Shown here: positions 26,885-29,874 of the stretch, one piece after another | Numbering within the stretch: the first letter of the stretch is position 1 | Layout of the letters: every line of letters starts with the position of its first letter | NCBI RefSeq assembly: GCF_030177755.1 | Contig: NZ_CP126539.1 | Span: 1,698,001-1,762,000 of the forward strand | From: Devosia sp. RR2S18 | GTDB lineage: Bacteria; Pseudomonadota; Alphaproteobacteria; Rhizobiales; Devosiaceae | Length of the DNA: 64,000 nt | Direction: 5' to 3' | Notes under the pieces: generated by a model | What the model was told of the DNA's origin: nothing | The model's database searches: none | The model's input: the letters and a program-made list of their open reading frames with translations, nothing else | Made by a program: the position numbers and the translations under genes

Positions 26885-27651
26885 TCTTCCGTGGGGTCGT
26901 TCCGGCGGCCGATGAGCTGGCCCAGGTGCGGTATCTCTTCACCGACATCGACGACACCCTCACCACCGAGGGGCGGCTGCTGCCCCAGAGCTATCAGGCG
27001 CTGTGGGACCTGCATGAAGCCGGCATCGCCATCGTCCCGGTTACCGGTGGCTCTGCGGGTTGGTGCGAGCATATCGTGCGCGCCTGGCCGGTTGCAGCGG
27101 TAATCGGGGAGAGCGGCGCCTTTAAAATGCGCCGGGTCGGGGGGCGGGTCGAGGTGGAGTTCTGGGAAGGCGAGGAGGTCCAGGCCAAGCGCCAGCGCCA
27201 GCATCTTCAAGCCATCACGCCGCTCCTGGGCGAGAGCTTTCCCGTCGCGCACGATCAGGCCTTTCGTCTTGCCGACGTTGCCATCGATATTGGCGGGCAC
27301 AGCCGGGAGGCGATCGACGCCCTGGCCGAGGCGATCCGTGCCCAAGGGGGAACCGTGGCCATCAGCTCGATCCACATCAACACCTGGATCGGCGACTACA
27401 ATAAACGCGCTATGAGCGAGCGACTGCTGGGGCAGTGGGGCGTGGCGGACAGCGATGTGGCGCGTTCAACCGCCTTTGTCGGGGACAGCCGCAATGATGG
27501 TCCCATGTTCGGCTTTATCCGCAATTCCTTTGGGGTGGGAAATATCCTCCCCATCCTTGATGATCTGTTGTTCAAGCCGCAATGGATCGTCAACCGGCCG
27601 GCAGGCCTTGGTTTTGCCGACATTGCCACGGCCCTGCTGAGCGCTCGCTAA
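26881..27651 (+). CDS. HAD-IIB family phosphatase
   Basis: A 256-residue haloacid-dehalogenase-type hydrolase; ATG 26881 overlaps the regulator stop by 4 bp (ATGA). Motif I is FTDIDDTLTT (nucleophile Asp), motif II VTGGSAGWCE, the motif III lysine is in YNKRAMSERL, and motif IV is FVGDSRNDGPMF. A C2B cap of the Cof/sucrose-phosphatase type lies between motifs II and III. The substrate is a phosphorylated small molecule, possibly a sugar or glycerol phosphate given the operon, but the exact one is unknown. Confidence 0.85.
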   Translation: MIFRGVVPAADELAQVRYLFTDIDDTLTTEGRLLPQSYQALWDLHEAGIAIVPVTGGSAGWCEHIVRAWPVAAVIGESGAFKMRRVGGRVEVEFWEGEEVQAKRQRQHLQAITPLLGESFPVAHDQAFRLADVAIDIGGHSREAIDALAEAIRAQGGTVAISSIHINTWIGDYNKRAMSERLLGQWGVADSDVARSTAFVGDSRNDGPMFGFIRNSFGVGNILPILDDLLFKPQWIVNRPAGLGFADIATALLSAR

Positions 27652-28050
27652 AGCGAGCGGAGCAACCAGCTCGGCCAACGAGTGGCCGTTGGCGGTCGCA
27701 ATAAACGCCTCCAGAGCCTCGTTGAGAACCTGCGGCAGGCTACAGACGGGTGTGTGGGGGCAGTCCGCGCCGCTCATGCATCCGACCATGGCAAAGTCGG
27801 GTTCGGTTACCCGGATGATGTCGCCGATCATGATCTCACTGGCAGGCCGGGAGAGACAAAGGCCGCCGCTGCGACCGCGGCTGGGCCGCAGCAAGTTTTC
27901 GCGGGCAAGCAGGTTCGCCACCTTCATGAGGTGGAAGCGGGAGATGCCGTAGAAGGCGGCGGCTTCCTGAATGGTGACGCGTTGCCCGGACTTGGAAGCC
28001 ACATGCATCATCAATCGCAAGGCGTAATCGGTAAACTGGGTGAGACGCAT
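27466..28050 (-). CDS. nsrR: Rrf2-family nitric-oxide-sensing repressor NsrR
   Basis: A 194-residue Rrf2 regulator. RLTQFTDYALRLMMHVAS, YGISRFHLMKVANLLAREN and RGRSGGLCLSRP form the winged helix, EIMIGDIIRVTEPDFAMVGC leads into the Fe-S cluster loop, and three cysteines are spaced C-X5-C-X5-C (GCMSGADCPHTPVC). This closely follows NsrR, whose cluster is destroyed by NO. Family proteins are usually ~150 aa; the last ~60 residues here run antisense over the 3' end of the HAD gene (186-bp overlap), perhaps after loss of a stop. It is downstream of, and probably co-transcribed with, the DoxX-like gene. Confidence 0.82.
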   Translation of the reverse strand: MRLTQFTDYALRLMMHVASKSGQRVTIQEAAAFYGISRFHLMKVANLLARENLLRPSRGRSGGLCLSRPASEIMIGDIIRVTEPDFAMVGCMSGADCPHTPVCSLPQVLNEALEAFIATANGHSLAELVAPLALASAQQGRGNVGKTKACRPVDDPLRLEQQIIKDGEDISHPKGIADKAEHGTIIAAVPDKGG

Positions 28051-28103
28051 GCAAGCCTCAAAAATGAAGGCAGCCCCGCCACGTGCGAGACTGCCACTTT
28101 TGC

Positions 28104-29291
28104 TTACTGTGCGGGCTGCAGGACGGTGAGGCCGTGCGGGTGCTCGGGGTTGGGCAGGTGGGTCAGCAATTCGCCGTCTGGGGCGACCGGCCCGGTGTGG
28201 CGCTCATAGTCGTAGAACATGGCGTGGAGCCCCCAGTAGCTGCCGGCAATGACGACCAGGGCGGCGAGTAGTCCTGCTGGGATGCTGCCGACGGCAGGCA
28301 CGAGGCTCTTGAGCTTGAGGCCCGAAGGTGTCGGGTCGGCGGCGATCAGGAAGAGCGTGCCCATGATCAAAGCGTGGCCAACCAGGTCGATGCGGCCGAA
28401 AGGATAGACCGCGGCGATGAAGATGATCAGCAGCGCAATGGCCGAGAGGCGACGAATCAAGGGGGTCCAGAGGAGGCCAAAGCCCATGGTAAATTCGGCA
28501 ACGCCAGCCATCGGGATGAAGGTATCACGCGGCATGCCGAAGGTCAGGAACGGACGCTCGTCAACCAGTGGGTAGAACCATTCGGGATAGGCGAATTTCT
28601 CCAGGCTCGACCACATCAGCGCAATTGCCACGCCCCAGCGCAAGATGGTGAAGCGGTGCTGAAACCACTTGCCGTTCGGGTCGGCCGCAAGAACAAGGTA
28701 GCCAGCGACAGCCACGCCAAGAGCGAGATAGTCGAGCAGGTGGAAGAAGTCGTAGTCGCGCAGGGCGATGACCCATAGGCCGATAATGCCTGCGGCGGCC
28801 AAGGGCATGGTGCGGCGCGAAAATACCAGCGCAGCGATCAACAGCTGCAACCACGACACCCACTCATTGGGGGTCTGCAGGTCGGGGGTGAGGTAGACCC
28901 CGCCAACGGCGAAGATGGCGACGAAGAAGGCGCCGATAACGCACCGCATGAAGTCGTCCGAACGGGTCCACAGCGGAAGGCTGGCGCGGTCCAGGCCGGC
29001 AGCAATGGTCGGGCCAGCCTGGCTGCGCTCGAAGAACACCGTGGCGGCGAAGAAGGCCAGCACAAGGATGATGCCGAGCCAGAACCAGCCATTGGCCAAC
29101 GTGTCGGTGATTGGCGCAGGGGCTGCGCCCACCACATAGGGGGCAAACCACTTCACGTGTGCATAGGCGGGGGTGGCAAGGCTCATGGCGCCGCCAAGCG
29201 TCACGGCACCAGCGGCGAAAGGGGCGAGCCGGCGCAGCGCAGTCCGTCCGAACCGGCTGGCCATCTTTGGCTCTTGTTGCATGTGTTTCAC
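28104..29291 (-). CDS. DoxX-like multi-spanning membrane protein
   Basis: A 395-residue inner-membrane protein. GTG 29291 (GGAG six bases upstream) or ATG 29282 could start it. A signal-like segment ends ATPAYAHVKWFAPY, followed by about nine to ten helices, for example WFWLGIILVLAFFAATVFF, VIGAFFVAIFAVGGVYL and WGVAIALMWSSLEKFAYPEW. The latter region with GVAEFTMGFGLLWTPLIRRL resembles DoxX/MauE proteins. No cofactor motif is obvious, although conserved-looking His are present. An NsrR-type operator lies 50 bp upstream, and the next gene is nsrR, so NO response is inferred. Confidence 0.72.
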   Translation of the reverse strand: MKHMQQEPKMASRFGRTALRRLAPFAAGAVTLGGAMSLATPAYAHVKWFAPYVVGAAPAPITDTLANGWFWLGIILVLAFFAATVFFERSQAGPTIAAGLDRASLPLWTRSDDFMRCVIGAFFVAIFAVGGVYLTPDLQTPNEWVSWLQLLIAALVFSRRTMPLAAAGIIGLWVIALRDYDFFHLLDYLALGVAVAGYLVLAADPNGKWFQHRFTILRWGVAIALMWSSLEKFAYPEWFYPLVDERPFLTFGMPRDTFIPMAGVAEFTMGFGLLWTPLIRRLSAIALLIIFIAAVYPFGRIDLVGHALIMGTLFLIAADPTPSGLKLKSLVPAVGSIPAGLLAALVVIAGSYWGLHAMFYDYERHTGPVAPDGELLTHLPNPEHPHGLTVLQPAQ

Positions 29292-29340
29292 TTCCGACTC
29301 CTATAGTCCCTGCAAATCCTGCAGTCCGGAGACGGTTCTA

Positions 29341-29363
29341 AAGATGCATTTCGCCCGCATCTT
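29341..29363. promoter_or_regulatory. NsrR-type operator between divergent genes
   Basis: A 23-base imperfect palindrome with outer arms AAGATGC and GCATCTT. The left half AAGATGCATTT is identical to the NsrR half-site consensus and the right half GCCCGCATCTT matches it in its outer seven bases. It sits 50 bp from the DoxX-like gene and 71 bp from the DUF305 gene, so one site could control both directions. nsrR itself is in the leftward transcript, giving autoregulation. Match to consensus is seen; function is inferred. Confidence 0.65.
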
Positions 29364-29433
29364 TGATCTCGGTCAATCACGGGCGCCGGTTTTTGCGCGA
29401 TGGTCTGGTCACGAAATCGAAGGATCAAAGATC

Positions 29434-29874
29434 ATGGACATTATCAAATGGGGCACTGCGGCGGTGCTTGTCGCCGCCTTTACAGGCGCTCTGCTGGTGC
29501 GCGACAATCCCACCGTATCTGCCACCGAGGTGGCGCTACCGGCCATTTGTGGTGACATTCATGCCGATCATGGAGGCAGCTCGATGCAGGCGCATATCGA
29601 CATGATGGCTGCCGACGCCGGTGATGCACATGCCGCGCTCCTGCAAACCATGGAGCCCATGCACTCAGACATGATGCGGGGCATGACCGCCGAAGATTTT
29701 GAGGTCGCCTTCGTGTGCAGCATGATTCCGCACCATCAGGGGGCCATTAAGATGGCGCAGGTAGCACAGCAATATGGAACCGAGCCCTGGGTCATGATGA
29801 TGGCGCAGGAGATCATCGCCACCCAGGAACTGGAGGTCCGAGAAATGCAGGGCTGGTTGGCGCGCAAGGAATAG
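29434..29874 (+). CDS. DUF305 domain-containing exported protein
   Basis: A 146-residue protein starting at ATG 29434 with AAGGA upstream. The N-terminal hydrophobic segment (WGTAAVLVAAFTGALLV) is a signal or anchor. The DUF305 core shows the hallmark FVCSMIPHHQGAIKMAQVAQ and a Met/His-rich stretch (QAHIDMMAADAGDAHAALLQ, MHSDMMRGM), the sort of residues that bind copper in related proteins. It is probably periplasmic. It is transcribed divergently from the DoxX-like gene across the NsrR-type site. Confidence 0.85.
   Translation: MDIIKWGTAAVLVAAFTGALLVRDNPTVSATEVALPAICGDIHADHGGSSMQAHIDMMAADAGDAHAALLQTMEPMHSDMMRGMTAEDFEVAFVCSMIPHHQGAIKMAQVAQQYGTEPWVMMMAQEIIATQELEVREMQGWLARKE

Follow-up and report, generated by a model that had tools for sequence, protein, structure and literature searches.

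The closest described systems are the NsrR regulons of gamma- and betaproteobacteria, whose operators follow the consensus gATGyAT-N5-ATrCATc (PMC1274295). The passages of that paper drawn on here also place an FNR site beside an NsrR-type dyad at hcp-hcr, and they recognise no NsrR orthologue in alphaproteobacteria except in R. capsulatus E1F1. The promoter of Neisseria nirK, according to the passages of PMC3240639 drawn on here, is activated by FNR and repressed by NsrR. The window analysed here, a stretch of 64,000 nucleotides from the alphaproteobacterium Devosia sp. RR2S18 (contig NZ_CP126539.1, positions 1,698,001 to 1,762,000), carries a related arrangement: an nsrR-like gene, a gene for a DoxX-like membrane protein, a divergent DUF305 gene and, between the last two, an NsrR-type operator with an abutting FNR/FixK-type box. 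We regard it as reasonably probable, from sequence comparison, that this locus is a dual-controlled envelope module whose DoxX/DUF305 unit handles copper during nitric oxide (NO) stress, a response suggested by the regulator and by the neighbours of the module.

The locus shares with the described NsrR regulons (PMC1274295) an NsrR-type regulator, a dyad and the placement of nsrR beside its targets, and it shares with Neisseria nirK (PMC3240639) the use of the same two regulators on one promoter, there serving a different gene. Its targets set it apart, as neither ‘DUF’ nor ‘doxD’ occurs in the passages of PMC1274295 drawn on here. The genome also has no hmp-type globin (no PF00042 match), unlike the regulons in those passages. 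The NO-defence genes for NnrS and group III truncated haemoglobin (trHb3), which occupy the same clusters as the module in other species, are not adjacent to it in the window; Comamonas-type loci share their nnrS partner with the NsrR regulons of PMC1274295. The DUF305 protein resembles the CopM/DUF305 copper-binding proteins in its Met/His-rich composition and HHxxAxxM motif, and differs from CopM in being a single short domain whose gene stands next to FNR- and NsrR-type sites and either diverges from the gene of a DoxX-like protein or is fused to it. The DoxX-like protein shares homologue names and a many-helix membrane character with DoxX/MauE-like proteins, and departs from them in its length, its predicted N-terminal histidine, its His-bearing tail and the absence of a Pfam match. 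In passages of open PMC papers, NsrR appears with DoxX or DUF305 only in separate, unrelated passages (subscription papers lay outside this search); neither DoxX together with DUF305 nor DoxX with truncated hemoglobin and nitric oxide was found in open PMC papers. A DoxX gene is listed in one table, in a passage without NO context (PMC4417242). NsrR control, promoters combining FNR and NsrR, and CopM-like proteins are already known.

The proposed control logic is well supported by comparison of loci. The palindrome AAGATGC-N9-GCATCTT is exact in the window, and its left half agrees with the published NsrR consensus at 7 of 7 positions, as a preliminary description of this locus had claimed, while the right half agrees at 5 of 7. 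All 14 genus genomes in which nsrR adjoins DoxX (of 75 searched) have an operator with 0–2 mismatches upstream of DoxX. In a detailed set of 16 loci (WIN, L021–L032, L034, L107 and L109), all 12 loci with nsrR have an operator with 0–2 mismatches, and the four without nsrR within 4 kb have 3, 3, 4 and 5 mismatches, so that none retains an intact site; this comparison leaves out the DoxX genes of G071, G074, G083 and G091, genomes with no NsrR-type gene. Devosia crocina holds two copies of the module, one of each kind (L021, L023), which differ in nsrR and operator and keep the FNR box. A broken second DoxX-like copy in G001 (L117/L118), which lies in two frames at a distance of about 8 kb from the intact copy, has no nsrR and has lost the operator (5 mismatches). 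Across 10 of the 12 nsrR loci, aligned after two near-copies were dropped, information content is highest in the half-sites (1.72 and 1.75 bits) and falls to 0.66 in the centre and to 0.60 and 0.52 in the flanks. The preliminary description had held that orthologous loci lacking the site would speak against NO control; decay of the site is confined to loci without an adjacent nsrR.

Loose matches to the palindrome occur in the window at chance level (three places at no more than 3 mismatches, 2.9 expected) and are therefore uninformative. In the 3.97-Mb genome the palindrome occurs at 21 places, twice exactly and 19 times with two mismatches (no place has a single mismatch), compared with three places for the reversed pattern. 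The second exact copy (C1:1247111-1247133, L006), which by reading is flanked by a clpS paralogue and a DUF1328-like gene, was rejected as a target: in 17 other genus loci, the best matches have 3–6 mismatches over a region that starts 300 nt before the gene and ends 120 nt inside it. Also rejected were the 19 two-mismatch places, all of which fall inside predicted open reading frames (ORFs; taken stop to stop, so that a few may extend into 5′ regions) with no FNR-type box within 60 nt. The genome scan that the preliminary description had suggested hence yielded no other good operator, and because the other exact copy is not conserved and the two-mismatch places lie in ORFs without an FNR box, the regulator looks dedicated to the DoxX/DUF305 locus in this strain. 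A chance palindrome beside three accidental neighbours would fit the chance-level loose matches and a second exact copy that itself seems accidental, but the site is kept at a nearly fixed distance and decays where nsrR is absent; this explanation is extremely improbable.

Abutting the operator is an FNR/FixK-type box, TTGAT-N4-ATCAA, which the alignment shows to be conserved as strongly as the operator; the preliminary description had recognised the operator correctly and overlooked this box. The box is present with 0–2 mismatches in 16 of 16 loci compared, and is kept where nsrR is absent and the operator degraded. Its distance to the operator start is 13 nt in 15 of the 16 (in L029 the operator is not placeable). 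The count omits the duplicates L101–L106, L108, L110–L113 and L115 and the broken copy L117/L118; the omitted duplicates, listed in the neighbourhood comparison, agree with the detailed set. Nine places in the genome have the form TTGAYYNNRRTCAA, against none for the reversed pattern. Among the eight outside this locus, two are at pseudoazurin genes, one of these between a Crp-family regulator and pseudoazurin-nirK; a third is at a PAS histidine kinase that weakly matches FixL, and a fourth at a 5-aminolevulinate synthase. The best match to the FixK model in this genome reaches 168 bits (cut-off 300), and there are four Crp-type helix-turn-helix matches.

Because the box abuts the operator and persists without nsrR, we infer a composite control that joins activation at low oxygen to a repression lifted by NO. 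Class II FNR sites activate from position −41.5. Were the box to act from this position on the DoxX transcript, the operator would span roughly −35 to −13, where a bound regulator could block. For the DUF305 gene the order is reversed, with the operator farther upstream than the FNR box, and this layout does not imply that NsrR represses DUF305.

The persistence of the box also feeds a rival account, in which the module is primarily a low-oxygen (FNR/FixK) envelope or copper module and NsrR a later, local addition in one Devosia clade with little effect. The FNR box is present in all 16 loci compared with an operator only in the 12 that have nsrR, DoxX genes without a nearby NO gene are common (38 of 80 loci, see below), and FNR-like boxes at no more than 2 mismatches occur in L037, L048, L057, L062, L080, L081 and L085, which have no NO gene nearby. 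This account is unlikely, if still worth weighing, since nsrR or trHb3 recurs near DoxX(-DUF305) in distant branches, namely Salinarimonas, Roseobacteraceae and kin, Comamonadaceae, Rhizobium giardinii and Micavibrio. Moreover, outside the split Devosia type, an NsrR-like dyad of no more than 3 mismatches stands 35–50 nt upstream of nsrR in 6 of 21 nsrR-bearing loci, for example AAGAGGTATTGTAAATGCATCTT in Rhizobium giardinii and AACATGCAAGATAAATGCATGTA in Arsenicitalea. Several other nsrR-bearing loci have a weaker dyad at the same place, judged by eye only, and the operator search near nsrR in Comamonas and Caenimonas-type loci found no dyad. Three Pleomorphomonas loci (L045, L052, L070) carry fused DoxX-DUF305 genes without nsrR and, upstream, a Fur-box-like dyad TTGAGAATGATTCTCA, from which L052 departs at one base.

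The regulator belongs to the Rrf2 family (PF02082, 92.9 bits against a cut-off of 30), with the domain ending near residue 130. Its D8, C91, C97 and C103 align with D8, C93, C99 and C105 of Streptomyces coelicolor NsrR, whose cluster ligands are Asp8 and three cysteines (PMC5411485, in the passages drawn on here). This alignment supports the NsrR identity proposed earlier at the level of type; the name ‘NsrR-type’ is used because the cut-off of the NCBIfam NsrR equivalog NF008240 is missed (105.2 bits against 182). The RirA equivalog NF008886, which is also far from reached (cut-off 193), scores slightly higher at 109.2 bits. These scores open a second alternative, in which the regulator reads iron or iron-sulphur status in the manner of RirA or IscR, rather than NO, and the module serves metal homeostasis. 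Two further observations favour it: the same three cysteines occur in other Rrf2 regulators (PMC5411485, same passages), and some DoxX relatives adjoin copper P-type ATPases or a multicopper oxidase.

Other features of the locus and the genus make an iron sensor distinctly unlikely. The NsrR ligand D8 is kept in the regulator, the operator is NsrR-type, and relatives of the module occur with nnrS and trHb3. Most genomes among the matches listed have a second Rrf2 protein of the genus, 36–40% identical to the regulator, which carries N8 and SELFLFK in 11 of 11 sequences read and in the genome under study (L002), unlike the D8 and SRFHLMK (residue 8 and recognition-helix letters) of the window regulator; it is this paralogue that looks like RirA. 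Of the 75 genus genomes, 19 have regulators of the window kind (at least 127 bits); below these comes, at 93.6 bits, the nsrR adjoining a fused DoxX-DUF305 gene in G021 (L116), and RirA-like matches reach at most 85 bits. By reading, some of these same-clade regulators lie within apparent nitrate-reductase/moaA, nirK/nirV/nnrS or iron-transporter/FmdE clusters, and the nirK of the G086 cluster was confirmed by family scan. Two NsrR-type genes (L165 in G061, L166 in G084) adjoin apparent iron ATP-binding cassette transporter and FmdE-like genes, which may be a further NsrR context. Nine pattern matches to the NsrR protein in viral contigs included no relative.

Neighbourhoods beyond the window tie the module to NO defence in other lineages. 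They were compared in the best 80 of 188 DoxX loci, with neighbours counted within 4 kb at a 40-bit phmmer threshold. DoxX and DUF305 form one protein in 32 of the 80 loci and are separate neighbours in 12; in the detailed set, DUF305 is beside DoxX in 14 of 16 loci (not L029 or L034). In the tree, a single supported Devosia clade (16 rows, 100/100) contains 14 of 15 split cases, and fused proteins are spread over several other branches. An NsrR-like gene is near DoxX in 27 loci, trHb3 in 30 (half of them in one genus, Microvirga) and nnrS in 4; at least one of the three is present in 42 of the 80 loci, and none in 38. The neighbour queries gave no match in a rough control of 58 other stretches (184 kb), each about 3 kb and thus shorter than the loci, all from the genome under study and from genus genomes. 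A Comamonas antarctica plasmid typed as conjugative (L119) carries Rrf2, NnrS, group III truncated haemoglobin, cupin and DoxX/DUF305 in that order. This plasmid set is bordered on one side by IS66 parts, and a further DUF305 gene as well as a copper-binding protein are encoded close by. Beside other DoxX copies stand copper ATPases or a multicopper oxidase, or no informative gene. The earlier remark that no classical NO target is adjacent in the window holds, and nnrS and trHb3 cluster with the module in other species. The link of DoxX/DUF305 to NO defence, as judged from these neighbourhoods, is stronger than the window alone shows, and the module also occurs outside NO contexts. Of the NO-module reading in the preliminary description, the NsrR-type regulator, the NsrR-type operator and the conserved module are supported.

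Across the 75 genus genomes, 14 have both DoxX and an NsrR-type gene, 7 DoxX only, 5 NsrR only and 49 neither (p = 1.3e-6, like all genus p values uncorrected for kinship). In G030, two nirK-family genes lie beyond nsrR-DoxX (C39:10057-16191), the nearest 1.9 kb from nsrR, and in G026 one lies 8.7 kb from DoxX. The genome under study has one whole nnrS and one trHb3, both located elsewhere and not among the palindrome places. Three of its genes score above the cut-off of the nirK family, so the organism is probably able to produce NO on its own. Each of these nirK regions (L173, L174, L180) has an apparent pseudoazurin gene, one of them confirmed by family scan, and two of the three carry an FNR-type box TTGACCCCGGTCAA. 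A second, truncated nnrS lies in two pieces (L168, C1:1847680-1848299) beside an apparent transposase gene.

The DoxX-like protein has no Pfam or NCBIfam match at E ≤ 1, so its label rests on homologue names: among the 120 homologues listed of 1506, three bear the name ‘DoxX family protein’ and four carry PF07291 (a second set comprised 120 of 2132 proteins), and the nearest named relatives among the matches listed are from Devosia. An invariant A-x-A followed by HVKWF (H45) stands near the N-terminus and TH-PN-EHPH at the C-terminus, and the predicted signal peptide would leave a histidine at the N-terminus. N-terminal histidine copper sites exist in other proteins. Conservation of HVKWF is partly circular for the 80 kept loci, for which AHVKWFAP and TPNEWVSW were search words; the motif also occurs in 7 plasmid loci fetched through tblastn (L119–L125). 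A DoxX profile run against Protein Data Bank (PDB) chains retrieved 9 sequences, all WD40- or WRAP-type designs, and was judged an artefact. The Foldseek list, headed by long-helix proteins with E above 0.4, was not used. The membrane domain of vitamin K-dependent gamma-carboxylase (GGCX) was considered as a fold lead and not assigned. Docking of DUF305 on the membrane part is not claimed, as the fused-protein model has a predicted template modelling score of 0.61 and a linker (346–395) with a predicted local distance difference test value below 50. The DUF305 protein reaches 66.2 bits with PF03713 (cut-off 27), and its HHxxAxxM-bearing sequence matches CopM at E 7e-16 (PDB 5fej, 5ffa, 7vw1, 3bt5). 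The earlier idea of a periplasmic copper site therefore holds in part, the DUF305 protein being CopM-like. Copper handling, guarding of copper sites and catalysis are candidate, unproven functions of the pair. A bolder proposal, improbable as it stands, is a new NO-defence machine in which a GGCX-like membrane protein with a quinol-site-like fold would hand on electrons or copper(I) to a copper site in the periplasm (N-terminal His, HPH tail, DUF305), removing NO or repairing NO-damaged copper sites; in Devosia it would be split into two divergent genes sharing the FNR box beside the NsrR operator.

The mechanism we favour is the dual-controlled copper module. An FNR/FixK protein would turn the promoter on when oxygen is scarce, and NsrR with an intact iron-sulphur cluster would occupy the operator over the −35/−10 region of the DoxX-nsrR promoter and block it. 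NO would destroy the cluster and lift the block, such that the DoxX-nsrR transcript would be made only when low oxygen and NO coincide, with nsrR limiting its own level. The DUF305 gene would share the FNR box. Because they form a single protein in other lineages, the DoxX-like and DUF305 proteins are taken to act as one unit, most likely binding or handling copper or guarding copper sites on the outward side of the membrane. In other species, this unit may work alongside NnrS and truncated haemoglobin.

Several observations weigh against this mechanism. Beyond the regulator’s shortfall against the NsrR model and its slightly better RirA score, the CopM equivalog-domain cut-off NF049983 is missed (83.2 bits against 90), and the single pointer to copper binding is the DUF305/CopM similarity. 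Four of the other eight FNR-like places are in or beside genes without a clear link. The genomes carrying the operator form one clade and are not independent, an nsrR-upstream dyad outside the split type appears in only the 6 loci noted, and the 38 loci with no NO gene count here as well. DoxX is not significantly associated with nirK across the genus (12 of 21 genomes with DoxX, 17 of 54 without; p = 0.064), and the genomes with both DoxX and NsrR do not track nirK (7 of 14, p = 0.37). Finally, a terminator-like hairpin separates the DoxX-like gene from nsrR; it may reduce nsrR transcription, possibly by attenuation.

All parts named in the preliminary description are present in the window. 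The DoxX-like gene and nsrR are 53 nt apart on the minus strand, with DUF305 divergent on the plus strand and likely starting at its ATG rather than at the GTG at 29173 given by the mechanical ORF.

Table 1. Features of the DoxX/DUF305 locus, in positions of the window.
Feature	Position	Strand	Basis
nsrR-like gene (Rrf2 family; D8, C91, C97, C103)	27466..28050	-	ORF and PF02082
Terminator-like hairpin and T-run, between the DoxX-like gene and nsrR	28069..28095	-	consensus match only
DoxX-like membrane protein, 395 amino acids	28104..29291	-	ORF; names of close homologues
NsrR-type operator AAGATGCATTTCGCCCGCATCTT	29341..29363		exact 23-bp palindrome, comparison of loci
FNR/FixK-type box TTGATCTCGGTCAA	29363..29376		9/10 consensus bases; one-base overlap with operator
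DUF305/CopM-like protein, 146 amino acids, Met/His-rich, N-terminal hydrophobic segment	29434..29874	+	PF03713

The tail of the nsrR ORF (27466–27651), which is outside the Rrf2 domain, shares sequence with the 3′ end of a HAD-type gene that converges on it, and a short palindrome CGCTCGCT...AGCGAGCG lies there at about 27642–27659. A HupE/UreJ permease gene (PF04955, 29967–30572) is convergent with the DUF305 gene; it was excluded as a module member, having no match in L021–L100 in the same scan.

These comparisons tie two widespread, poorly known families to the NO response through operator, neighbourhood, fusion and co-occurrence, and they would extend NsrR-type control in alphaproteobacteria. 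Sister copies within one genus, and within Devosia crocina, differ in nsrR and operator and keep the FNR box, providing a natural experiment. What DUF305 and DoxX-like proteins do under NO or copper stress thus becomes directly testable, and in harmless soil bacteria.

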